Shown here one piece after another: positions 3,554 to 44,179 of a stretch of 64,000 nt of DNA. Each line of letters starts with the position of its first letter. Position 1 is the stretch's first letter. This DNA comes from Streptomyces sp. NBC_01803 (GTDB lineage: Bacteria > Actinomycetota > Actinomycetes > Streptomycetales > Streptomycetaceae). Made by a program: the position numbers and the translations under genes. The stretch covers positions 2,515,501-2,579,500 of the forward strand of contig NZ_CP109073.1 of NCBI RefSeq assembly GCF_035917415.1. The letters are read 5' to 3'. A model generated the notes under the pieces. It did no database searches, was not told where the DNA came from, and saw only the letters and a list, made by a program, of their open reading frames with translations.

Positions 3554-4947
3554 CGCCTCACTCCTTGGGGGAACCGGTCGAGCAGATCGTCGGCGGGACA
3601 ACGGCCGCGCGCGGCGTACCGGTCGGCGAAGTCACCGACCGCGCGCCGAACTTCCGCGCAGGCCGGGTCACGGGCGAGGGCGGCCTCGGCGGCGGCGAGG
3701 CACGTGCGGACCGCCGGGCCCAGCGCGGGGTCGGCGGGACCGGCGCGGGCGGCACGCAGCCACAGGTCCGGGCGGGGGAACGGCCCGCCGCGCCCGGTCA
3801 ACGGCTCGGTCGCGTCGAACGCGGCCCCGGCCGCCACCGGATCGTCCATCAGGGCGGCGGCGACGGCGAGCGGAACGATCCAGCCGTCGTCGCCCGGCTG
3901 GGCGTCGATCATCCTCAACTCCAGCCAGCCGCGCGGCCGTACGGGCGGGAAGAGGGTGCCGAGGTGGTAGTCGAGGTCGTCGGGCCCCGGCGGGCGTTCG
4001 CGGGGCGCGTCCCCGGCCGCGTCGCGCAGCCAGGACCGGAACGTCCAGCCGGCCGGCGCGGTCCAGGCGGCGGGAGCGGGGCGGCGCACGCACAGCAGCG
4101 GCGCGTCGAGAGCATAACGGGCCCAGGCGTCGCGCGGATCGTCCACCGGCTGGAGCGGGCCGTGCCCCTCGGGCGGCCGGGTGCGGCCGGGGTCGACACG
4201 CGCCCACAGGGCCTGCCGGGTGGAGACCCAGCCGGTGGGACGGCCGTGCCACAGCGGCGAGTTGGCGAAGGCCGCGATCAGCACCGGGCCGAGGCGGTGG
4301 GCCAGGAGCCAGCGGAAGCGGTAGCCGGCGGGACCGTCGGTGTCGTCGCCCGCGTCCAGGCAGACCTGGACGGAGGCGGTGGCGCACATCACGGCCCGTC
4401 CGCCCGGCGAGAAACGGTCGAAGTGCGCCGCCATCGCCCGGTAGCGCGGCTGGCCGGCCACCGGGGGCGGTGCGCGGTACGGGTCGAGGCCGTAGCCGGC
4501 GAGGACGAGGCCGACGGCGGCCAGGGCCGCCCGGATCGCGGCGAGGTCGGCGGTCGCGGCGGCGACGCACCGGGCCAGGGAGGGCGCGGGCAGGCTGCTC
4601 AGCTCGACCTGGCCGCCCGGCTCCCGGGTGAGGCGCCCGCCCCCCGGCAGCGGCCCGAGCGAGGCCAGCGCGGCGTCCACGCTCCCGGCCGGAACGGCCC
4701 GCCCGGGAGCAGAAGCGTCACGAGCATCGCGGGCGTCACGGCTGCCAGGGGCGTCACGGCCGTAGTGGCCGTCACGGGCCTCGCGGACCAGCCACTCCAG
4801 CTCCACTCCGGTGAGCGCGGGGGCCCCGAGGGCGAAGCCGGAGCGCGCGACGTGGGCTTCGGCCGCCCGCTCCCCCAGTGGTCCGGTGCGCGCGCCCGGG
4901 TCCTCCGGCTCCCCGGGCTCCTGGGCTATGACCGCCTTCACCGTCAT
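3550..4947 (-). CDS. egtA: Glutamate-cysteine ligase EgtA
   Basis: EgtA makes gamma-glutamylcysteine from glutamate, cysteine and ATP and supplies the sulfur donor used by EgtB. Family traits visible are YRAMAAHFDRF, VMCATASVQVCLD, FANSPLWHGRPTGW and RGWLELRMIDAQPG, all typical of the actinobacterial GCS2-like EgtA group. I chose the ATG at 4947 (MTVKAVIAQ, 465 aa). A longer in-frame start at 5019 would read through the palindrome at 4993-5006 and is less likely. It heads the egtABCD unit. Confidence 0.9.
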   Translation of the reverse strand: MTVKAVIAQEPGEPEDPGARTGPLGERAAEAHVARSGFALGAPALTGVELEWLVREARDGHYGRDAPGSRDARDARDASAPGRAVPAGSVDAALASLGPLPGGGRLTREPGGQVELSSLPAPSLARCVAAATADLAAIRAALAAVGLVLAGYGLDPYRAPPPVAGQPRYRAMAAHFDRFSPGGRAVMCATASVQVCLDAGDDTDGPAGYRFRWLLAHRLGPVLIAAFANSPLWHGRPTGWVSTRQALWARVDPGRTRPPEGHGPLQPVDDPRDAWARYALDAPLLCVRRPAPAAWTAPAGWTFRSWLRDAAGDAPRERPPGPDDLDYHLGTLFPPVRPRGWLELRMIDAQPGDDGWIVPLAVAAALMDDPVAAGAAFDATEPLTGRGGPFPRPDLWLRAARAGPADPALGPAVRTCLAAAEAALARDPACAEVRRAVGDFADRYAARGRCPADDLLDRFPQGVRR

Positions 4948-4992
4948 CGTCGCCACCACCCTCCTCACGACGCGCTCACGAATCCGATTCAG

Positions 4993-5006
4993 CCGGATAT
5001 ATCCGG
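4993..5006. promoter_or_regulatory. 14-bp palindrome upstream of egtA
   Basis: CCGGATATATCCGG is a perfect palindrome 46 bp upstream of the chosen egtA start, in the 102-bp gap after the amidohydrolase gene. Its A/T core stands out in a G+C-rich setting and contains a possible -10-like TATAT. It could be an operator or part of the egt promoter. No known regulator is assigned. Confidence 0.45.
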
Positions 5007-5049
5007 CCGATGGGATCACCGTAAGGCGGCGGGCGGCGGCGCGCTCCGG

Positions 5050-6237
5050 CTATGCCGCCAGTCGGCGCACGGCCAGCTCCGCGTAGAGCGCGGCGCCATC
5101 GGGCAACACCGCCTCGTCGAACGCGGCCAGCGGGGAGTGGTTCGCCGGGGCGGTGTCGGGGTCCAGGCCGGGCATCGTGGCGCCGAGGAAGAGCATCGCG
5201 CCCGGCACCGCGTCGATCACCCGGGAGAAGTCCTCGGACCCGAGGATCGGGTTCTCCATCGGGGCGTACCGCTCCTCGCCGTGCAGCTCGCGCACCGCGT
5301 CGGCGGCGAACGCGGTCTCGGCGCCGTCGTTGACCGTGACCGGGTACTGCTCGACGAACTCGGCGTCCACCGCCAGCCCGTGCGCCGCCGCGATCCCCTC
5401 GCACACGGCGACCGTGCCCTCGCGCAGCCGGGCGCGGACCTCGGCGGAGAAGCTGCGGACGGTTGCGTGGAACGTCGCCGTGTCCGGGATGATGTTCGAC
5501 TGGGTGCCCGCGTGGAAGCTGCCGACGGTCAGGACCACGGGGTCGAAGACATCGAACGAGCGCGTGATCCATGTCTGGAGCGCGGTCACCATCTCGCACG
5601 CCGCCGGAATCGGGTCCTTCGCGCGGTGCGGGGCCGAGCCGTGGCCGCCCGCGCCCCTGACAGTCACCTCCAGCACGTTGGAGGCGGCCATCATCGGGCC
5701 GCCGCGCGTCGAGAACACGCCGGACGGCCAGGTGTGCGAGCTCACGTGGAGGGCGTACGCGGCGACCGGGCGCTCCCCCGCCGCGTCGAGCAGGCCCTCG
5801 GCGAGCATGTGCCCGGCGCCGTCCCAGCCCTCCTCGCCGGGCTGGAACATGAACAGCACGTTCCCCGCCAGCCGGTCGCGGTGCGCGGCCAGCAGCCGGG
5901 CGGCGCCGACCAGCATCGCGGTGTGCAGGTCGTGGCCGCAGGCGTGCATCCGTTCCGCCCCGGCGGCGAACGGCAGGCCGGTGCGCTCGGCGACCGGCAG
6001 CGCGTCCATGTCACCGCGCAGCAGCACGGTGCGGCCGGGGCGGGCGCCGCGCAGGACGGCGGTGACGGAGGTGAGACCGTGGCCGGTCGACACCTCCAGT
6101 GGCAGGCCGTCGAGGGCGGTGAGGACGGCTTCCTGGGTGCGCGGCAGGTCGAGCCCCACCTCGGGGATGGCGTGCAGCCGGCGGCGGAGGCGCATGAGGT
6201 CGTCGGCGAGGGTGTGGGCGTCGTCGAGAAGGTTCAT
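5050..6237 (-). CDS. M20 family amidohydrolase (hippurate/N-acyl-amino-acid hydrolase type)
   Basis: Predicted zinc-dependent hydrolase that removes acyl groups from N-acyl amino acids or related amides in the cytoplasm. Metal-site and catalytic motifs are RGDMDALP, HACGHDLHTAM, QPGEEG, LGSEDFS and NHSP in the expected order. At 395 aa it is the normal size, with no signal peptide. The ATG at 6237 has a GGGAGCG site and lies 19 nt after the stop of the FtsW-like gene, so the two are probably co-transcribed. Whether it serves ergothioneine metabolism is not shown; the palindrome before egtA suggests a separate promoter there. Confidence 0.85.
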   Translation of the reverse strand: MNLLDDAHTLADDLMRLRRRLHAIPEVGLDLPRTQEAVLTALDGLPLEVSTGHGLTSVTAVLRGARPGRTVLLRGDMDALPVAERTGLPFAAGAERMHACGHDLHTAMLVGAARLLAAHRDRLAGNVLFMFQPGEEGWDGAGHMLAEGLLDAAGERPVAAYALHVSSHTWPSGVFSTRGGPMMAASNVLEVTVRGAGGHGSAPHRAKDPIPAACEMVTALQTWITRSFDVFDPVVLTVGSFHAGTQSNIIPDTATFHATVRSFSAEVRARLREGTVAVCEGIAAAHGLAVDAEFVEQYPVTVNDGAETAFAADAVRELHGEERYAPMENPILGSEDFSRVIDAVPGAMLFLGATMPGLDPDTAPANHSPLAAFDEAVLPDGAALYAELAVRRLAA

Positions 6238-6256
6238 CGTGGAGCGCTCCCTTCAC

Positions 6257-7915
6257 TCAGGGGGTGCGGCGCACCGGCGCGCCCGGCGAGTCGCCCAGGT
6301 CCGGGCCGGGGCGACCGGCGCCAGGGTCCGGATCCGTGCCGGAACGCCGATCCGGGTACGTGTCGGAGCGCCGATCCGGATACGTGCCGGCACGCCGATC
6401 CGGGTACGTGGCCGAGCGCCGATCCGGATACGTGCCGGCACGCCGATCCGGCCCGCTGAGCGGGTCGGGGGCCGGGGCCGTGTCCCGGATCACGGGGACG
6501 AGGATCGTGGCGTTCCCCTCGGGCTCGGTGGCGGCCTTGCCGGCGCCGTCGCTGACCCGGATCAGCAGGGCGACCAGCAGCCAGTTGGCGACGGTGGACG
6601 AGCCGCCCTGGGCGAGGAACGGCAACGCCTTGCCCGTCAGCGGGATCAGCCCGGTCACGCCGCCGGAGACGATGAACACCTGGATCGCGAGCACCGTCGA
6701 CAGCCCGGCGGCAAGCAGCTTCCCGAACGGGTCGGTGGCCGCCATGGCGGCGCTCAGCCCGCGCTGGATGAGCAGCACGTACAGCAGGATGACGAGCGTC
6801 ACCCCGGCCAGGCCCAGCTCCTCCCCCACCGTGGCGAGGATGAAGTCGCTGCGCCCGGCGAAGCCGACCAGGTACGAATGGCCCTCGCCCAGGCCCGTAC
6901 CGGTGAGGCCGCCGGCGCCGAAGCTGAACAGCGCCTGCGCCGACTGGTCCGAGATCAGCCCCGGCGGGCGCTGGTCGGGCGGAAGGAAGATCGCCATCGG
7001 GTCCAGCCACGCCTGGACGCGGCCCTTGACGTGCTGCTGGGTGGAGGCGACGACGACCGTGCCGAGCGCCGCCATCAGGCCGCCGAGGACGACCCAACTC
7101 GTGCGCTCGGTGGCGATGTAGAGCATCACGATGAAGACGCAGAAGAAGAGGAGCGAGGTGCCGAGGTCGCGCTCGTAGAAGAGGACGACGAGGCTGACGG
7201 CCCACACCAGCAGCACCGGGCCCGCGTTCCGGCCGCGCGGCAGGGCCAGGCCGAGGATGCGGCGGCCGACGAGGGCGAGGGCGTCCCGGTTCGTCATCAG
7301 ATAGCTGGCGAAGAAGACGACGATCATGACCTTGACGAACTCGCCCGGCTGCACGGACAGCGGCCCGAGCGTGATCCACCGCTTCGCGCCGAACTGGTCG
7401 GCGCCGAAGAACGCCGGGGCCATCAGCAGCAGCATCGCCACGGCCATGCCGAGGTAGGTGTAGCGCTGGAGCACCCGGTGGTGGCGGAGCAGGACGATGG
7501 TGGCGACGAAGAGCCCGACGCCGACGACGCTCCAGATCACCTGATCGGGTGCGGCGGCGGCCGACTGGTAGTTGTCCGGCGGGTAGTGCTCGGCGTAGGC
7601 GTGGTCGAGCCGGTCGAGGAGGACCAGCCCGATGCCGCTGAGCAGAACGGTGACGGGCAGGATCAACGGGTCGGCGTGGCGGGCGAAACGGCGCACGGCC
7701 AGATGGGCGGTGAGGGCCAGGGCGCCGAGGCCGGCGACGTGGGTGAGGAGGCCGGACGGCACGTCGTCGTCCATGGCGAGACCGGCGGCGGCGTGACCGA
7801 ACGCGGCGATGGCGACGGCGAAGACGATCAGGGCCAGCTCGGTGTTGCGGCGGTGCGCGATCCAGCTTCTCACCGCTGGCGGGAGCTGAGCGCCGCCCTG
7901 CCTGCCCCTGATCAT
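6257..7915 (-). CDS. FtsW/RodA/SpoVE family membrane protein (SEDS) with repetitive C-terminal tail
   Basis: SEDS-family integral membrane protein, a class of peptidoglycan glycan-chain polymerases that pair with class B PBPs. About ten hydrophobic segments are visible. The family signatures LTGTGLGEG and the late loop GLIPLTGKALPFLAQGGSST are present. The C-terminal 65 or so residues are not family-like: they are charged repeats of the type PDRRAGTY/PDRRSATY (8 residues, 24 bp in DNA). No penicillin-binding protein gene is adjacent. It is one of several SEDS paralogues usual in Streptomyces, so a specific symbol is not justified. Confidence 0.85.
   Translation of the reverse strand: MIRGRQGGAQLPPAVRSWIAHRRNTELALIVFAVAIAAFGHAAAGLAMDDDVPSGLLTHVAGLGALALTAHLAVRRFARHADPLILPVTVLLSGIGLVLLDRLDHAYAEHYPPDNYQSAAAAPDQVIWSVVGVGLFVATIVLLRHHRVLQRYTYLGMAVAMLLLMAPAFFGADQFGAKRWITLGPLSVQPGEFVKVMIVVFFASYLMTNRDALALVGRRILGLALPRGRNAGPVLLVWAVSLVVLFYERDLGTSLLFFCVFIVMLYIATERTSWVVLGGLMAALGTVVVASTQQHVKGRVQAWLDPMAIFLPPDQRPPGLISDQSAQALFSFGAGGLTGTGLGEGHSYLVGFAGRSDFILATVGEELGLAGVTLVILLYVLLIQRGLSAAMAATDPFGKLLAAGLSTVLAIQVFIVSGGVTGLIPLTGKALPFLAQGGSSTVANWLLVALLIRVSDGAGKAATEPEGNATILVPVIRDTAPAPDPLSGPDRRAGTYPDRRSATYPDRRAGTYPDRRSDTYPDRRSGTDPDPGAGRPGPDLGDSPGAPVRRTP
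6333..6455 (-). repeat. In-frame 24-bp tandem repeats in the FtsW-like gene
   Basis: About five consecutive 24-bp units built on CGCCGATCCGG(G/A)TACGTG encode the PDRR(A/S)xTY repeats of the cytoplasmic tail. The period is a multiple of three and units differ at silent and conservative positions, so the array is read as protein and can vary in copy number without a frameshift. Confidence 0.8.
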
Positions 7916-31268: not shown

Positions 31269-31342
31269 GGGCCTGTAGCGCAGCCTGGTAGCGCATCTCG
31301 TTCGCAACGAGGGGGTCAGGGGTTCAAATCCCCTCAGGTCCA
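31269..31342 (+). tRNA. tRNA-Ala (anticodon CGC), AICE integration target
   Basis: Cloverleaf of 74 nt: acceptor GGGCCTG/CAGGTCC, D arm GCGCAGCCTGGTAGCGC, anticodon stem TCTCG/CGAGG with loop TTCGCAA (anticodon CGC), T arm AGGGG-TTCAAAT-CCCCT. CCA is not encoded. Its 3' 43 nt belong to the 60-bp repeat attL, so the element rebuilt a complete tRNA on insertion and the displaced 3' end now lies at 43376. Confidence 0.95.
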
Positions 31343-31359
31343 CCGGCAGGGCCGTTCAC
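31300..31359 (+). repeat. attL of the AICE (60-bp repeat, copy 1)
   Basis: Identical over 60 bp to 43376-43435. It starts in the anticodon loop of tRNA-Ala and runs 17 bp past the tRNA end. Flanking bases differ on both sides (C against A before, T against G after). Confidence 0.95.
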
Positions 31360-31452: not shown

Positions 31453-32694
31453 CTACTCGGCGCTGCCGAGATGCTTGCCGAGCCTGCGCAACGCCTTCCG
31501 CGTCGCCTCGGACGGCACGTGCGTGTAGACCTCCATCGTGACCGCGATTTTGCTGTGCCGGAGAATCTGCATGGCCACCCTGGGGTGGACGTCGAGGGCC
31601 GCCAGGAGCGACCCGCAGGTGTGCCGGGTGTCGTGCAGCCGGATACGCCGCACCCCCGCCCTGTCGGCCCGACCGGCGAACTGCCGGTTGAAGTTCCTCG
31701 GCTCGATCGGCGTGCCGTAGCGGGTGGTGAACACGAACCCGGTCTCGGTCCACAGCTCGCCCGCGGACTTCCGCGCGGAGTCCTGCGCCTCCCGCCGGAG
31801 CATCAGCGCGGCCCGGCAGATGTCGGGCAGCGGCAGCACGGCCGTGGACGCCTCGGTCTTGGTCTCGTCGTGCACCAGGCGCCGCTGGATGCGCTGCAAC
31901 GAGTGCTCGACGCTCAGCTCCCCCGCGTCCAAGTCCACGCTGCCCCAGGTCAGCCCGAGCACTTCCCCACGGCGGAGCCCGAGGACCAGCGTCAGCACGT
32001 ACGCCGGGTAGAGCGGATCACCGGCGGCCCTGGCAGCCTCCAGGAAGGTCCGCGCCTCCTCCACGGACCAGGGCTGCGGCTTCGTCCGCCGGACCGACCG
32101 GACCTTGACCAGCCCGGCCACGTTCTTCGAGATCACCTCCTCGGTCATGGCATGCGTGAGCGCCGACCGCAGCACGGTCCGGGCGTCCTGGACGGTCCGC
32201 CGTGACGGGAACTGCCGGCAGCACTGGCCGACCGCGCAGCAGTGCCGCCGCTGGAGCGGGTTCCGGTGCTTCTCCGGCCGCTTGGCGTCCTTGCCCTGGG
32301 CGCAGCATTGGCACTGGGCCATCAGGTCGTTGATCCACTTCCGCACGTCCCGGACGGTCAGCTTGTCGAGCCGCTTCGCTCCGAGCCCGGGAGTGATGTA
32401 GAGCCGGACGTGCATCGCGTACGTCTCGGCGGTCTTCGGCTTCAACTCCGGCTGCACCACTTCCCGCAGCCAGTACGCGAGGTACTGCCCGAGCGTCGGC
32501 ACAGTGGTTGCGACAGGCCCCTTGCTGGCTTCGGCGTGGAGCTTGACCCACTTCTCGTGAACGGCGGCTCTCGTCGGCCCGTAGACGTACTTGCGCTTCC
32601 TGTTCCCCTCCGGGGTGGTGACCCAGACGTAGGCAGCGAAGCCGTTCCGGTAGGGGTAGATGGAGCCTTCTCTGTTCCCGCGTTTGCCGCTCAT
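31453..32694 (-). CDS. int: AICE tyrosine site-specific integrase
   Basis: Catalyses integration at tRNA-Ala and excision with Xis. Catalytic residues are visible: the first Arg in LVLGLRRGEVLGLTW, the HxxR box in RLHDTRHTCGSLL, a His in QILRHSKIAVT and the nucleophile Tyr in EVYTHV. The N-terminal SAM-like arm domain precedes a Cys-rich insertion with CQCC and HCCAVGQCC, common in AICE integrases. The ATG at 32694 gives 413 aa and overlaps the xis stop (ATGA), so a longer upstream frame is rejected. Confidence 0.95.
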   Translation of the reverse strand: MSGKRGNREGSIYPYRNGFAAYVWVTTPEGNRKRKYVYGPTRAAVHEKWVKLHAEASKGPVATTVPTLGQYLAYWLREVVQPELKPKTAETYAMHVRLYITPGLGAKRLDKLTVRDVRKWINDLMAQCQCCAQGKDAKRPEKHRNPLQRRHCCAVGQCCRQFPSRRTVQDARTVLRSALTHAMTEEVISKNVAGLVKVRSVRRTKPQPWSVEEARTFLEAARAAGDPLYPAYVLTLVLGLRRGEVLGLTWGSVDLDAGELSVEHSLQRIQRRLVHDETKTEASTAVLPLPDICRAALMLRREAQDSARKSAGELWTETGFVFTTRYGTPIEPRNFNRQFAGRADRAGVRRIRLHDTRHTCGSLLAALDVHPRVAMQILRHSKIAVTMEVYTHVPSEATRKALRRLGKHLGSAE

Positions 32695-32903
32695 GCCGCA
32701 CGCTCCCCGGCGTCTTCGGTGGTGCAGCGCTCGACGTATTCGTCCACCCAAGCCGGGAGGATGCGGCGGTTGCGGCCGACCTTGACCGAGCGGATCTCGC
32801 CGGTCAGGACGAGCATTTTGGTCTTGGACAGTCCGAAGCCGAGCATGGCGGCGACCTCGGCGGTGGTGTGCCACTTGGGGGTGATGGGGGTCGCCGCGTT
32901 CAT
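32691..32903 (-). CDS. xis: Excisionase (winged-HTH, MerR/HTH_17 type)
   Basis: A 70-residue basic DNA-binding protein with HTTAEVAAMLGFGLSKTKML, a helix-turn-helix of the excisionase type, followed by the wing RSVKVGRNRRILPAWVDEYV. It should bend att DNA and direct Int towards excision. The ATG at 32903 overlaps the original rep stop, and the xis stop overlaps int, so rep, xis and int form one translational unit. Confidence 0.9.
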   Translation of the reverse strand: MNAATPITPKWHTTAEVAAMLGFGLSKTKMLVLTGEIRSVKVGRNRRILPAWVDEYVERCTTEDAGERAA

Positions 32904-34240
32904 GCGGTTGGTTCTCCTTCCGTTCCGGGTGCGGGGGCGAGCGAGGCCGTGAGCCATTCCTCGACCGGGGTGAGTCCGGTTCCGGCGTAGGCCCAGTGGG
33001 CGAGGACGAGCGTGGTTTCTTCCGGGCCGTGCGTCTCTCCGGCTTGTACGCGTCGCTATTCGGTGCGGGCGTCGCGGAGGGCGCCGAGGGTGGTGGAGTA
33101 GGCGCGGGACTTGGTGGAGAAGTGGCCGCGGAAGCCGAGCATGTGTGCCCAGGGGCGCAGTCGGAGGTGTTCGAGGTCTTCGCGGGCGCCGAGGGTCCAG
33201 GCGGTGCGGATCAGTCGGCGTGCGTGGTCGGTGATGTCCAGGGGCGCGAGTTTGGCCAGGAAACGAAGCGGGCGGTCGAGGGTGCCGGTGGCGGTTTCGG
33301 CGCCCTTGGTGGCGTACTTGGCGATGTAGGCGGCAACGGCCCGGTCGGTCAGCTCGGTCCCGCCGTCCAGGTCGGCCGACTTGATGGTGCGGACATCGAG
33401 CTGACGCCCGAAGGCGAAGGCGTGTGCACGCCCGTCGATGACCGGCCCGGCGACGACCGCCGAGGCGGCAGCGGCGCGGATGGCGTCGGTCAGCAGCTCG
33501 GCCGAGGCCCAGCGTGGGGGCGGGGTGTGGGCACCTTCCGGGCCGTCGAGGCGGATGACGGCGTGGAAGTGGACGGCCCCGCGCCGCTGGTACTCCGCGA
33601 CCTTGGCGAACGAGACCCGCGCGTGGCGGCGGAACGTCCGCTGGGTGAGTCCGGCGCGCTTGGCGATCTCGCGACGCAGGTAGATGGTGAAGCGCCGCCA
33701 CAGGGCGCCCGCGTGGGCGTTCCACAGCACGGCCGCGTCGTAGTCGTACGTCTCGGGGTCCAGGGGTGTGCCGAGCCGGGCGTCGTCCTGGTCGTGGGCG
33801 GTGCCGCAGCGGCAGGCCGGGCGCCCGCTGGGCCGGTTGTGAACCGGGCCGAAGCTGGGCGCGGTGAACGTGGCGAACACCCTCGGGTGGTTGGCCACCT
33901 GGTCGGGGACGGTTTTACCACCTCGGAGTCCGGCGGTGATGAGGTGGTAGGTGTCGCGGCGGTAGGTCTCGGCGCAGGCGGGGCAGCGGGTGGCGCGGCG
34001 GTTGTTGCAGCGGGTCAGCAGGTGACCGGCGGGCAGCTCGGCGGAGTCCAGGTGCCGGAGTGCGGCGCCGATCTCGCCGGTTGCGGTGTCGAGGTGGTGT
34101 TCGGTGCGGTGTCCGGCCAGGCGTATGGGTCTGGTGCAGCCCCCGAGCCCGGAGAGTTGCCGGGCCAGGCCGGGAAGAGCGCCCGTCGTGGCGAGTTGGC
34201 CGAGTTCGGGCAGCGGGGGCGGGGTGGTGCGGGGGATGAT
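32900..34240 (-). pseudogene. RepSA-type rolling-circle replication initiator, interrupted by an amber codon
   Basis: The reading frame runs from about 34240 to the TGA at 32900-32902, which overlaps the xis ATG, but is cut by TAG at 33056-33058 (codon 395 of 447). Protein-like sequence with normal codon bias continues in the same frame after the TAG (GETHGPEETTLVLAHWAYAG and WLTASLAPAPGTE). The HUH-type motif GAVHFHAVIRLDG and the Tyr-containing YIAKYATK are upstream and intact. A TGG or CAG codon was probably mutated. No ATG or GTG suits the N-terminus; an ATC at 34240, 7 nt after AAGGAG, may be the start, otherwise GTG 33898 gives a shorter protein. A 394-residue product could be partly active. 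Confidence 0.85.
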
Positions 34241-35646: not shown

Positions 35647-36984
35647 TCAGTCCGCCGAGACGGCCGGGGCCATGGGCTGGAAGGGCTTGAGCGCGGGGAT
35701 GTCCGGCGCGAGGTGGGCGAACTCCCGGCAGCGTGCCGCAGCTTGGGCCAGGGAGAGGTAGGGGGTACGGATGCGGGACCAGCCGCCGGAGGTATCCCCT
35801 GCGACCGCGAGACCGGGTCGTTCGGGTGGGATGGCGCAGGCGGCGGTGACGGCTTCGGGGGCGATGTCGCCCAGGGCCATCTTCGCGGAGGCTTCGTCGT
35901 TGACGCGGTGGCAGACGCGGCCGGTCAACTGGGCGCGGAGCATGGTGGCGCCTTTGCCGAGTTCGGCGCCGAACCGCTGCCCGCACACCTCCAGATAGAT
36001 GCCAGCGGCGCGGCCGAGCTGTGCCAGGCGCACGAGTTGGGTGACCATCTCGTCCCGCTTCTCTTCGTCCTTGCGTGTGGCGGTCAGGAACAGTTCGGCC
36101 ACTTCGTCGATGAACACCACGACCGGCACCGGCCGTTCATCCTCCGGCAGGCCCCACACATCGGAGGTGATCTCGCCGTCCGCCACCTCCGGTGGGATGT
36201 TCTGGCGGGCGCGTATCAGGTCGTAGCGCTCCTCCATCAGCCCGACCAGCACCGGCAGCAGCTCCCCCGCCTGTTGCGGGTCGGTGGCCAGGGCGGACAA
36301 GCGCGGGGCGAACGGCGCCAGCTCCACCCCCCGCTTGCAGTCGATCCCGACCAGGGCCACCCGTTGCCCGGCCAGACCGGAGAGCAGGTGCCGCAGGTAC
36401 ATGGACTTGCCCGACAGCGTCGCCCCCAGCGTCAGTGCATGCGGGACGGTTCGGTAGTCGCGGACGAACGCGGTGGCGTCTTCACGAAGAGCGACCGGTA
36501 CCCGCAGGAACCCGCCACCGGTCTTGCGCGGCATCCGTACGCGGTTGAGGACGTCGAAGCCGACCAACCGCAGCTCCACCACACCCGGCTTCACCTCCGA
36601 CACATACACGGCGTGCACACCCCAGGCATGCCGCAACCGCTCGGTCGAGGCCGCAACGTCCGCGACCTCCTGCCCCGGAGCCAGCCGCAGCCGGACCCGC
36701 AGGCCGGTCGAGGTGGGACGGACCATGCCCCGGCGGGGCGGAACCGGCCGCACCTCACGCCGCGTCGCCGCACGCACGGCCAGCGCCCGCAACCGGGATG
36801 GAGGCACGGTCAGCCCGCACGCCTCCATCACCGACCCGTACGACCCCAGCAGCCGCGCGGCGGACACCGGGAGGCCGACCGCCGACCAGAACACGTTCGG
36901 GTAGCGGTGCCGGGCGTACACGGCGCCGCCTCCCGCAGCGGCCAGTGAACCGCCCGCGCCCAGCAGGTTCAGCAGCTCGGACAT
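35647..36984 (-). CDS. FtsK/SpoIIIE-domain conjugal DNA translocase (TraSA/TraB-like)
   Basis: The main conjugation protein of AICEs: a hexameric ATPase that moves double-stranded DNA between mycelia. Walker A is LGATLSGKSMYL and Walker B is PVVVFIDEVAELF. A sensor-like segment LEVCGQRFGAE follows. The N-terminus has a weak hydrophobic segment and basic residues. The ATG at 36984 (MSELLNLL, 445 aa) begins the family-like sequence. Five bases separate its start from the next gene's stop, so both are probably in one operon under KorSA-type control. Confidence 0.9.
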   Translation of the reverse strand: MSELLNLLGAGGSLAAAGGGAVYARHRYPNVFWSAVGLPVSAARLLGSYGSVMEACGLTVPPSRLRALAVRAATRREVRPVPPRRGMVRPTSTGLRVRLRLAPGQEVADVAASTERLRHAWGVHAVYVSEVKPGVVELRLVGFDVLNRVRMPRKTGGGFLRVPVALREDATAFVRDYRTVPHALTLGATLSGKSMYLRHLLSGLAGQRVALVGIDCKRGVELAPFAPRLSALATDPQQAGELLPVLVGLMEERYDLIRARQNIPPEVADGEITSDVWGLPEDERPVPVVVFIDEVAELFLTATRKDEEKRDEMVTQLVRLAQLGRAAGIYLEVCGQRFGAELGKGATMLRAQLTGRVCHRVNDEASAKMALGDIAPEAVTAACAIPPERPGLAVAGDTSGGWSRIRTPYLSLAQAAARCREFAHLAPDIPALKPFQPMAPAVSAD

Positions 36985-36989
36985 CAGTG

Positions 36990-37340
36990 TCAGGCCCCCG
37001 CCGTGACGGGGAACGCGGCCGTGGTCACGGCAGCGGCCCGGAACGCGATGCCGTGGCGCTGCTGCCCGTTGAACACCGACTCCCACGGCCGGGCGACCAG
37101 GCCCGGCAGGGCCACAGGGGCGCCGAGCACGAGTCCTTCGGAGACGCCGGACTCGGGGATGGTGACCTGGACGAGCGAGGATTCGCCGTCCTGGATGTAG
37201 ACCACGCTGATCCGCATCAGCGCCTCGCCGCTCACGGCATCCTTGGCGATCTCGCCGGTCTGCCGATCACGCACCTTCGGCGCCGGTTCCTCGGTGAGGA
37301 GGATGGTGGCGGTGGAGGTCTCAACTCGAATGGAACGCAA
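36990..37340 (-). CDS. SCO3933-like AICE regulatory protein
   Basis: Small protein (116 aa) that precedes the transfer ATPase in many AICEs. Visible pattern: RSIRVETSTATILLTEEPAPK, then VRDRQTGEIAKDAVSGEALM and a beta-rich C-terminal half. The TTG at 37340, with GAGGGAG upstream, fits the family N-terminus better than the ATG at 37394. The function is not established; a regulatory role is only the customary label. Confidence 0.7.
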   Translation of the reverse strand: MRSIRVETSTATILLTEEPAPKVRDRQTGEIAKDAVSGEALMRISVVYIQDGESSLVQVTIPESGVSEGLVLGAPVALPGLVARPWESVFNGQQRHGIAFRAAAVTTAAFPVTAGA

Positions 37341-37543: not shown

Positions 37544-38332
37544 TCAGGTCGCGGGAAGCTGGTAGGCGAGCACGTAGGCATCGGCCGCCATCACCGTGTC
37601 GCAGACCTCCACCGGCCGCCCCTCCGTGTCATAGGCCGTCCTGATGAGGTGGATCACGGGGACACCGGCGGCGAGCCGCAAGGTCTTGACCTCCAGCGGG
37701 GACGGCATCCGGGCGCGGATCTCCTCCTCGAAGTGGTCGAGCCGGTGCCCCAGCTCTTCCAGCCGGGCGTAGATGCCGCCCGGTCCGGGGTTCGGCTGGG
37801 CGATGGGGGTGTTGCGGGCCAGGTCCAGCGGCAGGAAGGAGGCGGCGAACTCCACCGGCCGGCCGTCCAGCAGGTACCGGCGGCGCCGGGCCAGCACCTT
37901 GCGCGGCCCGCCCAGTCGCGCGGAGATATCCTGTGTGGGCCGCTCCTCCTTCACTTCCAGGCTGTCCACCTCGGGGCGGCTTCCCGCGGCTTCGGCCTCC
38001 ACGGTGAACGCGGACTTGCCCTGCTCGCGGTGGCGCCGGGCGAACCGGTCGGAGGCCAGCCGACGCACTGGCGGGCGCGGCCGGACGAAGACGCCCTTCC
38101 CGTGCTCGGAGTGCACCAGGCCCTCACCCTGGAGGACCGACAGCGCGTTGCGGACGGTCATCCGCGAGACGCCGTAGTGCTCCACCAGCTCCGACTCCGA
38201 GGGCAGCTTGGCACCCTCCTTGAACCGGCCCTTGTCGATCGCCTCGCGCAGTTGGTCCGCGATCTGCCGGAACACCGCCCGGTCACTCGTGGAGTCCAGC
38301 GCGCCCAGCACGCCGGAGGGAAGACCTGCCAT
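37544..38332 (-). CDS. GntR/HutC family repressor of AICE transfer (KorSA-like)
   Basis: The N-terminal winged helix has FRQIADQLREAIDKGRF and the recognition region YGVSRMTVRNALSVLQGEGLV. The C-terminal UTRA domain spans about residues 95-255 (RRRYLLDGRPVEFAASFLPL). In pSAM2 the same position holds KorSA, which represses the activator gene pra and so keeps the element integrated. No pra-like gene is present here. Length 262 aa. A candidate operator at 38353-38360 lies 20 bp upstream, which suggests autoregulation and control of the divergent NUDIX gene. Confidence 0.88.
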   Translation of the reverse strand: MAGLPSGVLGALDSTSDRAVFRQIADQLREAIDKGRFKEGAKLPSESELVEHYGVSRMTVRNALSVLQGEGLVHSEHGKGVFVRPRPPVRRLASDRFARRHREQGKSAFTVEAEAAGSRPEVDSLEVKEERPTQDISARLGGPRKVLARRRRYLLDGRPVEFAASFLPLDLARNTPIAQPNPGPGGIYARLEELGHRLDHFEEEIRARMPSPLEVKTLRLAAGVPVIHLIRTAYDTEGRPVEVCDTVMAADAYVLAYQLPAT

Positions 38333-38422: not shown

Positions 38423-38854
38423 GTGAGTACCCATCGCCCGCACTCCGTGAGCGTCGCCGGAGTCATCATCGACGGCCAGGGCCGCGCCCTGCTCATCCAG
38501 CGCCGCGACAACGGCCACTGGGAGCCGCCCGGCGGCGTCATCGAACCGGGCGAGACGATCCCCGACGCCCTGGCGCGTGAAGTCCTCGAAGAGACCGGCA
38601 TCAAGATCGCCCAGTCCCCCGTTCTGACCGGGGTCTACAAGAACATGACCGGCCTGATCGTCGCGCTCGTCTTCCGCTGCGAAGCAGCGGACGGCCATCC
38701 CGCCACCGGGCCGGAGACCAAGGCCGTGCGGTGGGTTACCCGCGACGAGGTGAACGAGCTGGCCGACGAGGCGTACGCCGTGCGCGTCCTGGACGCCATG
38801 GACGCAGCCTTTCCGCCGGCCGTCCGCGCCCATGACGGCGTGAAACTCGTCTAA
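38423..38854 (+). CDS. NUDIX hydrolase, Pif-like conjugal immunity protein
   Basis: The NUDIX box is complete: from GGVIEPGET to REVLEETGI the spacing is Gx5Ex7REUxEExGU. In pSAM2 the pif gene, which encodes a NUDIX protein, prevents redundant transfer between donors and is near korSA. The position here, divergent from a KorSA-like gene, makes the same role plausible. A general nucleotide-pool hydrolase is the alternative. The GTG at 38423 gives 143 aa. Confidence 0.85.
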   Translation: MSTHRPHSVSVAGVIIDGQGRALLIQRRDNGHWEPPGGVIEPGETIPDALAREVLEETGIKIAQSPVLTGVYKNMTGLIVALVFRCEAADGHPATGPETKAVRWVTRDEVNELADEAYAVRVLDAMDAAFPPAVRAHDGVKLV

Positions 38855-39607: not shown

Positions 39608-40093
39608 CAACCTTCTCTACGACTTCAAGGCGCCGCGCATCCGCGCGGCACGCGCGGCAGCGGCGGCCCCGGGCCGCCGCTCCTGTCTCCGCCCCGCTCC
39701 GCCCCAGGCCCACCGGCCGCGCAGCACTCAGGCGCGCCCCTGGCTGCGGCGAAGGGGGTTCGTCGTGGCTGGGGGTCGGCTCCGCGGCTTTACGCACCTG
39801 TCAGGCCCGGGACCCGCGTCGGGCAAGGCCAGGGGGCCACTCGGGCACAAACGCGGGCAGGACCATCCTGCCCGAGTCGCCGACCAGCGTACGGCCCCCT
39901 GACCATGCCCGACCCCAACCCCGACAGGACACCGCCCAAACCCGCTCCACCGACCTCGTAGATGCCCGCCCACGGAAACATCCCAAAGCTACCCGCCATC
40001 ACGAGCACAGTGCGTAGGATCTGTTCACTGAGCTGGACAGGGTGCGGGAACCTAGTTCCCGTGACCACGCGATCGCTGCGACCAGGGGGATGT
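39608..40093. other. Gap before the cargo genes
   Basis: No supported gene in 485 bp. G+C is high until about 39960 and then falls. A -10-like TAGGAT at 40014-40019 could be the promoter of the cargo operon. In-frame codons extend the large cargo frame back to 39962, but the encoded segment has no conserved look. The junction probably marks the edge of the acquired cargo. Confidence 0.4.
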
Positions 40094-42475
40094 GTGGAGC
40101 ACAACGTTTTTCTCGGTTACTCAAAGAACCCTGCGGAAGTCCGTCAAGAAATTCTGCACGCCTCCGATGTGATCAACAAGTCCGGATTTGCTGAAGCCCA
40201 AACCTGGGAAGCGATTCCAGCAACCGGGCGCCTGATCATCGAAACGGTCCTTCGCGCCATTGATGACAGCACAATCTGCCTTTTCGATGTCACCACCCTC
40301 AGCGAGAATGTGCTCTTTGAAGTGGGCTATGCCTTCAGCCAGCGAAAGCACCTCATGCTTTCCGTCCATAAAACACCCAAAGCCCAGCATACTTGGCGCT
40401 CATTTGACATTTTCTCCACCATTGGCTGTATTTTCTATGAGACAGGCGGCGAGCTCGCCTCTAAGTTCATGACAGGAATGGCAGCCGCCAGCGAAAAGAC
40501 GCTATGGGATGACGTCTCACAAGCACTGGACGGGCATAATCGAAATTCACTATTCTATGTGCCTACCTATCACACGTCGGAAGCCGAACGGAACCTCCGA
40601 AGGATGGTGGGAAAGGAAAGGGATCTAGGAACCAAGGTAACTATTGCAGACCCCGCAGAACAAGGATTTGCACCATTGGCGTGGTACGTAAACGCCGTCT
40701 ATTCATCTTCTGCCACCTTGCTGCAGATTTCGGGTGAGGGACACGATCGGAATCGACTACATAACGCTCGCACCGCATTCATCGCCGGACTGGCGCGAGG
40801 CCTAAACCGCCCCCTCCTAATTATCGTGGACGAGGAGTATCAGGGCCCGGTTGACTATAAGGATATTCTCTACACTTACCACAACAAAAAGAAGCTTTCA
40901 GAAAAATTCAACGAGTGGCTCGGCAAGGCTTTCGAAATCTGGAAACGTGAAAATACGCAGGCCACCTCACTCGAAATCCCTAAGGTGGAGATCGCCACCG
41001 AGCTAAGGGAACTAAAGTTCGGTGACTACGTCGCAGAAAATGAGAGTGATACGCTCGACGAGTATTTCGTAGAGACAGCAGAATACGAAGCAGTATTGCG
41101 TGAAAATAGCGTCGTTTTTGTCGGCCGGAAGGGAATGGGCAAGTCGGCGAACATGATTCGAGCCTCTCAGGTATTGGGGGATGACAGGCGAAATTTGGTT
41201 TGCTTGATACGGCCCACCAACTATGACCTAGATGGCCTGGTCGATGTCTTTCAGTCGATAGGCGGTGACGGAAATCAATCCTTTCTAGTTGACAGTTTTT
41301 GGCGATTCCTGCTCTACTCGGAGATCGCGATTACCGCTGTGGCCGCCGCGGAGAGGCTTCCGGCTGGCATCAGCGCCGGCACCTCTATTGCCCATCTGCG
41401 TGACTATCTGGCCCAGAATGATATCTCCGATGAATTCTCTGTCCGCCTGGAGAAGGTAATCGATGGTGCACTCGCAGAGCTGAAGGAGGAGCCGGGTAGC
41501 ACCATCCAGAAGCAAAGGGAGCGCATCGCTCAAGTCCTACACGGCAATATCGTTGGCAACCTTAGGCGACTCCTCGGAGAAGCTCTAAGGGATCGTCACC
41601 GTGTAGCACTGCTTTTGGATAATCTCGACAGCGCTTGGACGAGGTCAGGACAATTGCAATCTCAAGCAGTGCTGCTAGTTGGATTGCTTGGTGCTGTAAG
41701 TCGCATCGCAGAAGACTTCCGGAAAGAGAATAATCGCCTTCAGTCCGTCAACGTCACGATCAGCGTTTTCCTGCGCTCAGACATTTATGACGAGGTGATT
41801 AGAGAGGCGCGCGAACCGGACAAGATCAACACTAAGAGAATCGACTGGAATCAGCCGGAGCTCCTGAAGCGAGTGATTGATGAGAGGTACCTTTCAGCAA
41901 GGCCTGCGGGTACTTCTCCTGACGAGCTGTGGCAGAGGTTTTTCTGCGCTGAAGTCGATGGCACGCCAACCCTGGAGCATATCCTTGCAACCATCCTGCC
42001 TCGTCCCCGGGATCTAGTCTACTTCTGCAAGGCAGCCGTACAGAATGCCGCCAATGCGCGACATTCTATGGTCGACGAGAGCGATATTCATGAGGCAGAG
42101 AAGACGTACAGCAAATTCGCCGTCGACGCTCTTCTAGTCGAGTATGGCTCTACCATAGGACACCTTGAAGATGTTATCTATGAATTTACTGGCAGCGAAG
42201 ATACCCTGTCTCACTCCACGGTTCTTGAGCTCATCTCTAACGGTCTAGACGGAGGCGACAGCCGAGCTGCAGAGGAGTGCCTAGAAGGTCTCCTGAAGAT
42301 TTCCTTCCTGGGCATCGAAGTTCGCGATGGTGAGATTTGGTACCCGGAAAGAGCCGATCAGTTGCGTAAGGCGAAGATACTGGCAGGCAAAACCTCGCGC
42401 CGCAGAATGAGAGAAGAGCGCTATCAGATCCACCCCGCTTATAGGAACTTCCTGGAGGTGGAACGCTCGGCCTAG
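40094..42475 (+). CDS. Large putative defence ATPase: TIR/deoxyribosyltransferase-like N-terminus plus P-loop ATPase
   Basis: From the GTG at 40094 (793 aa; GTG 40061 is an alternative). Residues 1-130 look like a TIR/nucleoside-deoxyribosyltransferase-like Rossmann domain: EHNVFLGYSKNPAEV, then DVTTLSENVLFEVGYAF, whose Glu is where such enzymes have their catalytic residue. Residues about 150-290 are a second Rossmann-like domain (ARTAFIAGLARGLNRPLLIIV). From about 335 comes an ATPase of the Sll1717-like P-loop group: a conserved lead (DTLDEYFVETAEY), Walker A VFVGRKGMGKSAN, Walker B VALLLDNLDSAW and sensor-like VFLRSDIYDE. A helical C-terminus follows. Codon use is far less G+C-biased than its neighbours, so it was acquired. 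A sensor-effector role in phage defence is inference. Confidence 0.75.
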   Translation: MEHNVFLGYSKNPAEVRQEILHASDVINKSGFAEAQTWEAIPATGRLIIETVLRAIDDSTICLFDVTTLSENVLFEVGYAFSQRKHLMLSVHKTPKAQHTWRSFDIFSTIGCIFYETGGELASKFMTGMAAASEKTLWDDVSQALDGHNRNSLFYVPTYHTSEAERNLRRMVGKERDLGTKVTIADPAEQGFAPLAWYVNAVYSSSATLLQISGEGHDRNRLHNARTAFIAGLARGLNRPLLIIVDEEYQGPVDYKDILYTYHNKKKLSEKFNEWLGKAFEIWKRENTQATSLEIPKVEIATELRELKFGDYVAENESDTLDEYFVETAEYEAVLRENSVVFVGRKGMGKSANMIRASQVLGDDRRNLVCLIRPTNYDLDGLVDVFQSIGGDGNQSFLVDSFWRFLLYSEIAITAVAAAERLPAGISAGTSIAHLRDYLAQNDISDEFSVRLEKVIDGALAELKEEPGSTIQKQRERIAQVLHGNIVGNLRRLLGEALRDRHRVALLLDNLDSAWTRSGQLQSQAVLLVGLLGAVSRIAEDFRKENNRLQSVNVTISVFLRSDIYDEVIREAREPDKINTKRIDWNQPELLKRVIDERYLSARPAGTSPDELWQRFFCAEVDGTPTLEHILATILPRPRDLVYFCKAAVQNAANARHSMVDESDIHEAEKTYSKFAVDALLVEYGSTIGHLEDVIYEFTGSEDTLSHSTVLELISNGLDGGDSRAAEECLEGLLKISFLGIEVRDGEIWYPERADQLRKAKILAGKTSRRRMREERYQIHPAYRNFLEVERSA

Positions 42476-42532
42476 GAAGGGGCTGTTTATTGGACTGTCG
42501 TAGTCGTTAGCGAGCGCGAGCGCGGAGAGAAC

Positions 42533-43060
42533 ATGTCGGACGCCCTTGATGAGCTCCGTAGTGCTGTATGGAACCCGGAATTCCCCCTCGGCTCTCCCCT
42601 GACAGGGAGTCAGGATTTAAGCCACCAGGTCCTGTTGGAGCAGTACAAACTCTACGTGGAAATGACGGACAGGATGAGTGCCCGTCGCGCTTTGACCAAT
42701 TCCTTCTTCCTAACGATTAACTTGGCTGCACTAGGGGCTGTGGGTTCACTAGCCGCCAAGTATCCAAGAGATTGGAGTGAAATCGTTGCGGTTACCGCTG
42801 CACTTGCCCTGATAGCTGAGTGCTTTGTGTGGTTCTATACACTTCGCTCCTACAGGCAGCTAAGCAAGGCTAAGTACACGGTGATTGAAGTTCTTGAGGA
42901 GAAACTTCCCTCTCGCCCATACTCGAAGGGGGAATGGGGCGCATACATCAGATCAGGGAAACAAGGGAAGTACTTTCGCCTGACAAGCGCAGAACAGATG
43001 ATGCCGCTAATCTTCGGTATCAGCTACTTGGCCACCCTTTTTTATTTGTCGAACAAGTGA
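42533..43060 (+). CDS. Small two-helix membrane protein (SLATT/RipA-like), partner of the ATPase
   Basis: 175 residues. A conserved-looking lead, LLEQYKLYVEMTDRMSARR, precedes two adjacent hydrophobic segments (TNSFFLTINLAALGAVGSLA and IVAVTAALALIAECFVWFYT), then a soluble part and a third weaker segment at the end (MPLIFGISYLATLFYL). The lead and helix pair resemble SLATT/RipA-type proteins, predicted pore-forming effectors that pair with nucleotide sensors. The ATG at 42533 has GGAGAG upstream and follows the ATPase stop by 57 bp. It shares the low-G+C codon style, so both genes moved together. Confidence 0.7.
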   Translation: MSDALDELRSAVWNPEFPLGSPLTGSQDLSHQVLLEQYKLYVEMTDRMSARRALTNSFFLTINLAALGAVGSLAAKYPRDWSEIVAVTAALALIAECFVWFYTLRSYRQLSKAKYTVIEVLEEKLPSRPYSKGEWGAYIRSGKQGKYFRLTSAEQMMPLIFGISYLATLFYLSNK

Positions 43061-43375: not shown

Positions 43376-43435
43376 GTTCGCAACGAGGGGGTCAGGGGTT
43401 CAAATCCCCTCAGGTCCACCGGCAGGGCCGTTCAC
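43376..43435 (+). repeat. attR of the AICE (60-bp repeat, copy 2)
   Basis: Exact copy of 31300-31359: the 3' 43 nt of tRNA-Ala plus 17 bp. The upstream tRNA half is missing here, as expected of the displaced end. Confidence 0.95.
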
Positions 43436-43547: not shown

Positions 43548-43952
43548 TCAGCGGTGCGGCTCGGTGAAGACCTCGATAGGGCACCGGGCCCGGCCGGCAC
43601 GTTCGATTCTGGCATCGCTGGTGATCAGTGGAACTCCGAGTCCTTCGGCCAGGGCCACATAGGTGGCGTCGTACGGCGACAGGTTGCTCCACAATTCGCG
43701 AACACGCGGCAGCACCGGCATGTGCTCCATCCTTCTGATGGGCAGGAGGGTGAAGGAGTCCCAGGCCACGTCGAGTTGGGTTGCAGTCAGCTTTCCGCCG
43801 CGGTGACGCCCACGCAGCGCCGAGGCGACCTCGACATCCAGCAGGTACGGCGCGGCCAGACGCTCCGATTCGGCACGCTTGCGCACCGCCTCCCCCACGG
43901 GACCGGCGTCTGCCACGAGGTGCACGACAGCGCCCGCGTCCACCACGATCAC
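43548..43952 (-). CDS. vapC: PIN-domain toxin VapC
   Basis: Predicted Mg2+-dependent RNase that cleaves tRNA or rRNA when free of VapB. Acidic PIN residues are visible: the first Asp in MIVVDAGAVVHLV, Glu in LLDVEVASAL, and Asp in LSPYDATYVALAE and LITSDARIERA. Length 134 aa is normal. The start overlaps the vapB stop by 4 nt. The gene lies in the 980-bp segment between the 104-bp repeats. Confidence 0.9.
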   Translation of the reverse strand: MIVVDAGAVVHLVADAGPVGEAVRKRAESERLAAPYLLDVEVASALRGRHRGGKLTATQLDVAWDSFTLLPIRRMEHMPVLPRVRELWSNLSPYDATYVALAEGLGVPLITSDARIERAGRARCPIEVFTEPHR

Positions 43953-44179
43953 GTGCGCTCACGTCCCGACTCGATATCGGCCAGCACCTCGCTCGTAGAC
44001 AGCCGCGCGGTCACCCGCTCCCTGATGCGGGCAATGACGTCCTCGGTAGCCGGGGTGGCCGCCTCCTGCTCCAGCAGTGTCCGGGCGTATGCCTGAAGAG
44101 ACTGCCGGTTCCGGGCGGCTCTTATCTTGAGCTCGGCGAGCGCGTCGTCGGACAGGTCCCGGACGTAGAGAGTAGCCAT
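43949..44179 (-). CDS. vapB: Antitoxin VapB (ribbon-helix-helix, FitA-like)
   Basis: 76 residues; N-terminal RHH DNA-binding part LYVRDLSDDALAELKIRAARN, then a helical region that should wrap around VapC. It blocks VapC and autorepresses the pair. The ATG at 44179 lies 13 bp from a palindromic candidate operator at 44193-44210. Confidence 0.9.
   Translation of the reverse strand: MATLYVRDLSDDALAELKIRAARNRQSLQAYARTLLEQEAATPATEDVIARIRERVTARLSTSEVLADIESGRERT

Follow-up and report, generated by a model that had tools for sequence, protein, structure and literature searches.

The window analyzed here is a stretch of 64,000 nucleotides from Streptomyces sp. NBC_01803, whose genome of 5.85 Mb is a single contig. 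It contains an AICE of approximately 12 kb, in which att repeats at the 3' end of a tRNA-Ala gene surround integrase, replication, transfer, and regulator genes whose names were given by eye. The features are as follows.

31269–31344, plus strand: tRNA-Ala (CGC), the integration site, located with ARAGORN
31300–31359, no strand: attL, a 60-bp exact repeat containing the 26-bp core
31453–32742, minus strand: tyrosine integrase of the AICE (ORF, approximate start, named by eye)
33056–33898, minus strand: replication initiator of the AICE (ORF, named by eye)
35647–37086, minus strand: TraB/FtsK-like transfer protein (ORF, approximate start, named by eye)
37544–38332, minus strand: GntR/KorA-like regulator (ORF, named by eye)
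38423–38854, plus strand: Nudix hydrolase of the AICE (ORF, named by eye)
40094–42475, plus strand: gene 1, 793 residues, with a TIR/NDT-like domain (1–131, Glu76), an alpha/beta domain (152–289), and an ORC/NLR-like NTPase with a winged-helix region (302–793)
42533–43060, plus strand: gene 2, 175 residues, a membrane protein of the 8xMP family by PF24838 score and model, 57 bp downstream of gene 1
43376–43435, no strand: attR, a 60-bp exact repeat and copy of the tRNA end region

In a shuffle control, none of 100 shuffles contained the 26-bp att core. The integrase-, replication-, and transfer-like genes lie on the minus strand after tRNA-Ala, and genes 1 and 2 are the last cargo on the attR side. 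The preliminary description had noted two same-strand cargo genes of low G+C bias at this end of the AICE, beside attR; the coordinates and base composition agree with it, and the exact 60-bp repeat encloses both genes. Their GC contents are 0.524 and 0.515, compared with 0.68–0.73 in the six other AICE genes measured, and their GC3 values are 0.584 and 0.602, compared with 0.87–0.92. Because of this difference in GC3, the two genes were probably acquired separately from the rest of the element. Just beyond attR, on the minus strand (43548–44179), is a toxin-antitoxin pair that was judged by eye to be VapBC-like.

The most likely start of gene 1 is the GTG at 40094 rather than the ATG at 39962 of a longer frame, because it is preceded by AGGGGG and several close homologues start at the same alignment column. 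The motifs TTLSENVLFEVGYAF, GRKGMGKS, and LLLDNLD are all found in the protein. In an alignment of the query with 53 of its 99 homologues, Glu76 and the Walker A residue Lys350 are identical in all 54 sequences. The N-terminal domain matched a PDB profile with an E value of 5.6e-6, and its predicted structure is an alpha/beta arrangement of five strands and helices; the single-sequence Pfam scores were under the cut-offs (15.2 versus 28.8 bits and 12.9 versus 24.7 bits). By the Glu in an E(L/V)G motif and the modeled five-stranded alpha/beta fold, the domain is assigned to the NDT/DNPH1/TIR superfamily. The profile search and structure prediction thus agree with the earlier suggestion of a TIR/deoxyribosyltransferase-like domain with a possible catalytic Glu. 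The second Rossmann-like domain proposed in the same description is visible in the model as the alpha/beta domain at 152–289, which is devoid of the Glu of the N-terminal domain. The P-loop ATPase, also noted there, could be assigned to the Sll1717 family, since residues 309–787 matched the whole profile NF047389 with 306.5 bits (cut-off 75). A search of Pfam up to E 10 found no C-terminal repeat family (TPR, LRR, or WD40), and the C-terminal part was modeled as helices and short strands.

Gene 2 scored 123.8 bits against the Pfam family 8xMP (PF24838, cut-off 30) over residues 35–171, and several of its close relatives carry the NCBI name 'RipA family octameric membrane protein'. The protein was modeled as a monomer (pLDDT 79), and the word octameric comes from the family name alone. 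The model contains three hydrophobic helices, at approximately residues 53–77, 80–106, and 155–174, one more than the two adjacent helices that had been described. The earlier likeness to SLATT/RipA proteins holds for a membrane protein of the 8xMP/RipA family; however, membership in SLATT was rejected by score (13 bits versus a cut-off of 41). Our searches found no solved structure related to gene 2.

Full-length gene 1 is rare in the genus, being present in 3 of 392 Streptomyces genomes including its own, and in both of the others an 8xMP gene adjoins it. Moreover, gene 1 has 27 protein clusters that are at least 74% identical over at least 99% of its length, and at least 13 of them seemingly share a genome with an 8xMP match (an indirect pairing, based on the 120 listed of 241 8xMP matches). 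The pairing is conserved among close relatives of gene 1. Farther away, the 80 top-ranking gene-1 loci in GTDB genomes cover approximately 20 phyla by an approximate count, and in 64 of them the fetched sequence extends 800 bp or more in each direction. An 8xMP gene was observed in the fetched flanks of 5 of these 80 loci, all actinobacterial (L031, L035, L038, L039, and L040), and gene 1 therefore probably often acts without 8xMP. One case outside actinobacteria is a Leptolyngbya plasmid (L222), where 8xMP and the gene-1 homologue converge tail to tail. The positions and orientations of 8xMP differ among the loci, suggesting multiple origins of the link. The two-gene system postulated from the window alone is thus kept among close relatives but is not obligatory.

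These counts raise the alternative that gene 1 alone is a complete NADase-type abortive-infection protein resembling TIR-NLR proteins. In that case, 8xMP would be an accessory without nucleotide gating, serving to modulate or localize gene 1 or to supply a second route of killing. Besides the 75 GTDB loci with no 8xMP in the fetched flanks, none of the 33 matches on viral contigs has one in its fetched flanks, and 9 of these matches cover all or almost all of the protein. Among the close neighbors of gene-1 homologues, there is no alternative membrane or effector partner that is seen repeatedly. However, the link to 8xMP changed at least four times on well-supported branches of the 8xMP tree, with varied positions and orientations, and 8xMP is also located beside other TIR/NDT enzymes, suggesting a response to the enzyme product. 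We regard this alternative as unlikely, although it is the most serious of those considered here.

To describe the neighbors of 8xMP itself, 60 of its places in Streptomyces, where it was matched in 74 of 392 genomes, were fetched for context. A same-strand ORF lies upstream at 55 of 57 8xMP loci, and the leading Pfam families were TIR_2 (11), ThsB_TIR (10), NDT (7), and S1 (5), the next family reaching 3; among 49 downstream ORFs, TIR_2 was found 3 times and NDT twice. As a background in the genus, 101 genomes gave 13 matches to ThsB_TIR, which is rare, and 15 to NDT. With our own TIR profile, built from 11 of the 8xMP partners, a same-strand TIR gene was located no more than 350 bp upstream of 8xMP at 22 of 70 loci. 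These comprise 10 of 52 in the Streptomyces scan (including a 66-residue fragment in L159 and a fusion in L158) and 12 of 18 outside it, namely 3/3 in other Actinomycetota, 4/8 on plasmids, and 5/7 in viral contigs. Twelve weaker places (L195–L200 and L206–L211) were kept outside the 70 because they did not match our alignment-based 8xMP profile, although L206 and L207 exceed the Pfam cut-off; none has a TIR/NDT neighbor, and counting them gives 22/82. Duplicates (L003 and L183 of L031, L184 of L002, and L205 of L192) and the window itself (L203) were left out of the counts and the tree.

The partners are diverse. Small ThsB-like TIR proteins adjoin 8xMP by Pfam in L157, L162, L172, L187, L201, L202, and L204, and further small TIRs were found with our own profile in L188–L190. 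In Actinoplanes (L035), the gene order is TIR, 8xMP, and gene-1 homologue. Eleven plasmid records contain 8xMP; eight were opened, and the other three are further Leptolyngbya strains. The TIR-8xMP pair is present on Novosphingobium and Synechococcus plasmids, and on a Polaromonas plasmid it directly follows a type I restriction gene. The small TIR and 8xMP genes overlap by 1–4 bp on the Paenarthrobacter (L212, 4 bp), Polaromonas, and Synechococcus plasmids.

Other arrangements were also observed. Upstream of 8xMP in L153, L174, and L185, an NDT-like domain with weak Pfam scores is fused to S1 RNA-binding domains, an architecture that is not familiar to us from the literature; S1 alone scored in L167 and L191. 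A protein of 1045 residues with ParA-like, weak TIR-like, and NACHT regions is encoded immediately before an 8xMP gene whose product is placed close to gene 2 in the tree (L141, 5074–8765). In L161 (approximately 4650–6759), a CAP12-type TIR is located downstream of 8xMP, and a 44-residue remnant of the gene-1 N-terminal domain (58% identical, with a stop) is found just upstream. The Paenarthrobacter plasmid carries a TIR and caspase-family pair followed, approximately 2 kb on and on the same strand, by its TIR-8xMP pair (L212, 1505–5465). TIR and 8xMP share one open frame of 284 residues in L158 (genome G375, 5125–5976), which is either a natural fusion or a sequencing slip, as this genome is 55% complete.

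The new result is that 8xMP genes recur directly downstream of otherwise unrelated proteins with a TIR/NDT-like domain. The common feature of these partners is the TIR/NDT enzyme and not the NTPase, which argues for a nucleotide-gated effector over a partner dedicated to the gene-1 ATPase. The simplest account is that 8xMP answers to the product of the enzyme. The roles could also be reversed, with the TIR/NDT protein as the effector and 8xMP either acting upstream of it as a sensor in the envelope or inhibiting the enzyme. The short overlaps of the small TIR and 8xMP genes would be expected of such a tight complex. However, the small single-domain TIRs match the profile of ThsB, which is described as the signal maker in Thoeris (PMC11204291), and the membrane protein is the predicted effector in the phage TIR-SLATT neighborhoods described in PMC9503650. 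Such a reversal is improbable.

Of the 241 8xMP homologues found, 120 were listed and 47 were aligned. In a tree built from 78 8xMP proteins, 11 changes are needed to explain the TIR label, which is carried by 23 rows, whereas shuffled labels required 20.1 on average and none of 500 shuffles was as low; a change here can be a gain as well as a loss, genomes that are related do not count as independent, and some of the deep branches are long or open. For the gene-1 label, carried by 7 rows, 5 changes are needed, at least four of them forced by well-supported branches, and 7 of 500 shuffles were as low. The 8xMP proteins paired with gene 1 are located in a Streptomyces-Micromonosporaceae branch that includes gene 2, while that of Nonomuraea (L040) is placed inside a branch rich in TIR pairs. 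The Leptolyngbya protein (L222), a partner of a gene-1 homologue, is placed beside the TIR-paired L201 with support of 85/61. Because a branch of 28 rows, 25 of them from the Streptomyces scan, is without a TIR/NDT neighbor, 8xMP has other roles besides this pairing. Many loci of the TIR-less branch (e.g., L149, L150, L156, L164, and L173) share a downstream gene of approximately 165–210 residues; the one product that was scanned (L113) has no Pfam or NCBIfam match.

The surroundings of gene-1 homologues were sampled by drawing 133 of 188 neighboring ORFs at random, and 129 were used after removal of three 8xMP genes and one further neighbor in L039. PADLOC matches with E 1e-8 or better included restriction proteins of types IIG, III, IV, and I, a GajB helicase, and DRT-, Mads-, and HEC-type models; these are raw matches without a random background among the best 25 of 166 profiles, counted as profiles and not as ORFs. 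On a Rhodococcus plasmid, a TIR protein and a DUF4062 protein are encoded close to a gene-1 homologue that is annotated in two pieces.

AICE-like genes are also present near some gene-1 homologues. In Jiangella (L036), the neighbors include a protein 43% identical to the replication initiator and relatives of the transfer protein and the regulator. The transfer protein has further relatives in L038 and L040, the Nudix hydrolase in L038, and the regulator in L031. The pair might accordingly serve the AICE itself, for example in the exclusion of related elements or in a response to transfer stress, rather than defence. AICEs are known from actinobacteria, while gene-1 homologues range over approximately 20 phyla and also occur on plasmids and in viral contigs; therefore, this role is disfavoured. 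The restriction genes among the neighbors also argue against it, and we consider it very improbable.

From the observed domains, invariant residues, and recurrent pairing, we infer the following course of events. In gene 1, the region that comprises the NTPase and the winged helix would detect a phage cue and change its assembly state, and this change would switch on the N-terminal TIR/NDT-like enzyme. Judging from the fold and the invariant residue, Glu76 may serve to cleave an N-glycosidic bond, with NAD+ as the most likely substrate, and the product may be an ADP-ribose-type nucleotide. Gene 2 would respond to that nucleotide and make the membrane leaky, as the recurrent pairing of 8xMP with unrelated TIR/NDT enzymes suggests. 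At loci without 8xMP, the gene-1 enzyme may act alone by depletion of its substrate. The chances appear evenly balanced that the pair is an abortive-infection-type defence module carried by the AICE, with the NTPase as the sensor, the TIR/NDT product as the signal, and 8xMP as the membrane effector.

Somewhat more tentatively, 8xMP may be a general membrane effector of TIR/NDT immune enzymes. The enzyme would vary (a lone TIR, NDT-S1, TIR-NACHT, or the NDT-second domain-NTPase fusion), the nucleotide-opened 8xMP would be constant in a Thoeris-like manner, and in the window the sensor, the signal maker, and the switch NTPase would be one protein. If this is true, the TIR-linked branches of the large uncharacterized 8xMP family acquire a function that can be tested, and 8xMP joins SLATT and TM-macro among the membrane-effector families that answer to ADP-ribose-type immune signals. 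A fused sensor-enzyme architecture present in approximately 20 phyla would also be added. The overlapping TIR-8xMP pairs on plasmids and viral contigs are small enough for direct tests of the signal and the channel.

The preliminary description knew of no named system with this domain order, and PADLOC likewise gave one weak match for each protein and no named system. Gene 1 resembles the NCBIfam anti-phage protein DS41_1 (NF053860) at the P-loop, its best stretch, but the score of 49.6 bits did not reach the cut-off of 370. Swarozyc (DUF4062), found in defence islands, is described as having a TIR/NDT-like NADase domain with a conserved Glu, similar to that of gene 1, and an auxiliary HTH/winged domain (PMC13174449). 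However, gene 1 has no DUF4062 match in Pfam, and the auxiliary domain reported for Swarozyc is not an ATPase (PMC13174449). TIR-NLR or TIR-STAND proteins, such as the TIR-NLR of a P4 satellite described in PMC9122126, have a TIR-type domain at the N terminus ahead of a STAND/NLR-like NTPase, an order that gene 1 may share. Gene 1 differs from them in the intervening second alpha/beta domain and in its membrane partner; Pfam showed no C-terminal repeats in it. In the TIR-SLATT neighborhoods of firmicute phages, a TIR is similarly placed beside a small transmembrane protein, which was predicted to be a membrane effector regulated by ADPr derivatives (PMC9503650); 8xMP differs in its score below the SLATT cut-off. 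In Thoeris, as described in PMC11204291, the TIR protein ThsB makes a signal for a separate effector, ThsA, which is a membrane protein in the TM-macro variant. The two genes of the window do not constitute a Thoeris system of separate ThsB and ThsA, since the TIR/NDT domain and an NTPase form a single protein, and the SIR2-SLOG or TM-macro domains of ThsA were absent from both proteins in Pfam up to E 10, gene 2 being without macro, SLOG, or SIR2. Nevertheless, a TIR-type enzyme gene adjoins a separate effector gene in that account as in the window, and TM-macro ThsA is membrane-bound like gene 2 (PMC11204291). The best reading is that genes 1 and 2 follow a Thoeris-like logic with a fused sensor.
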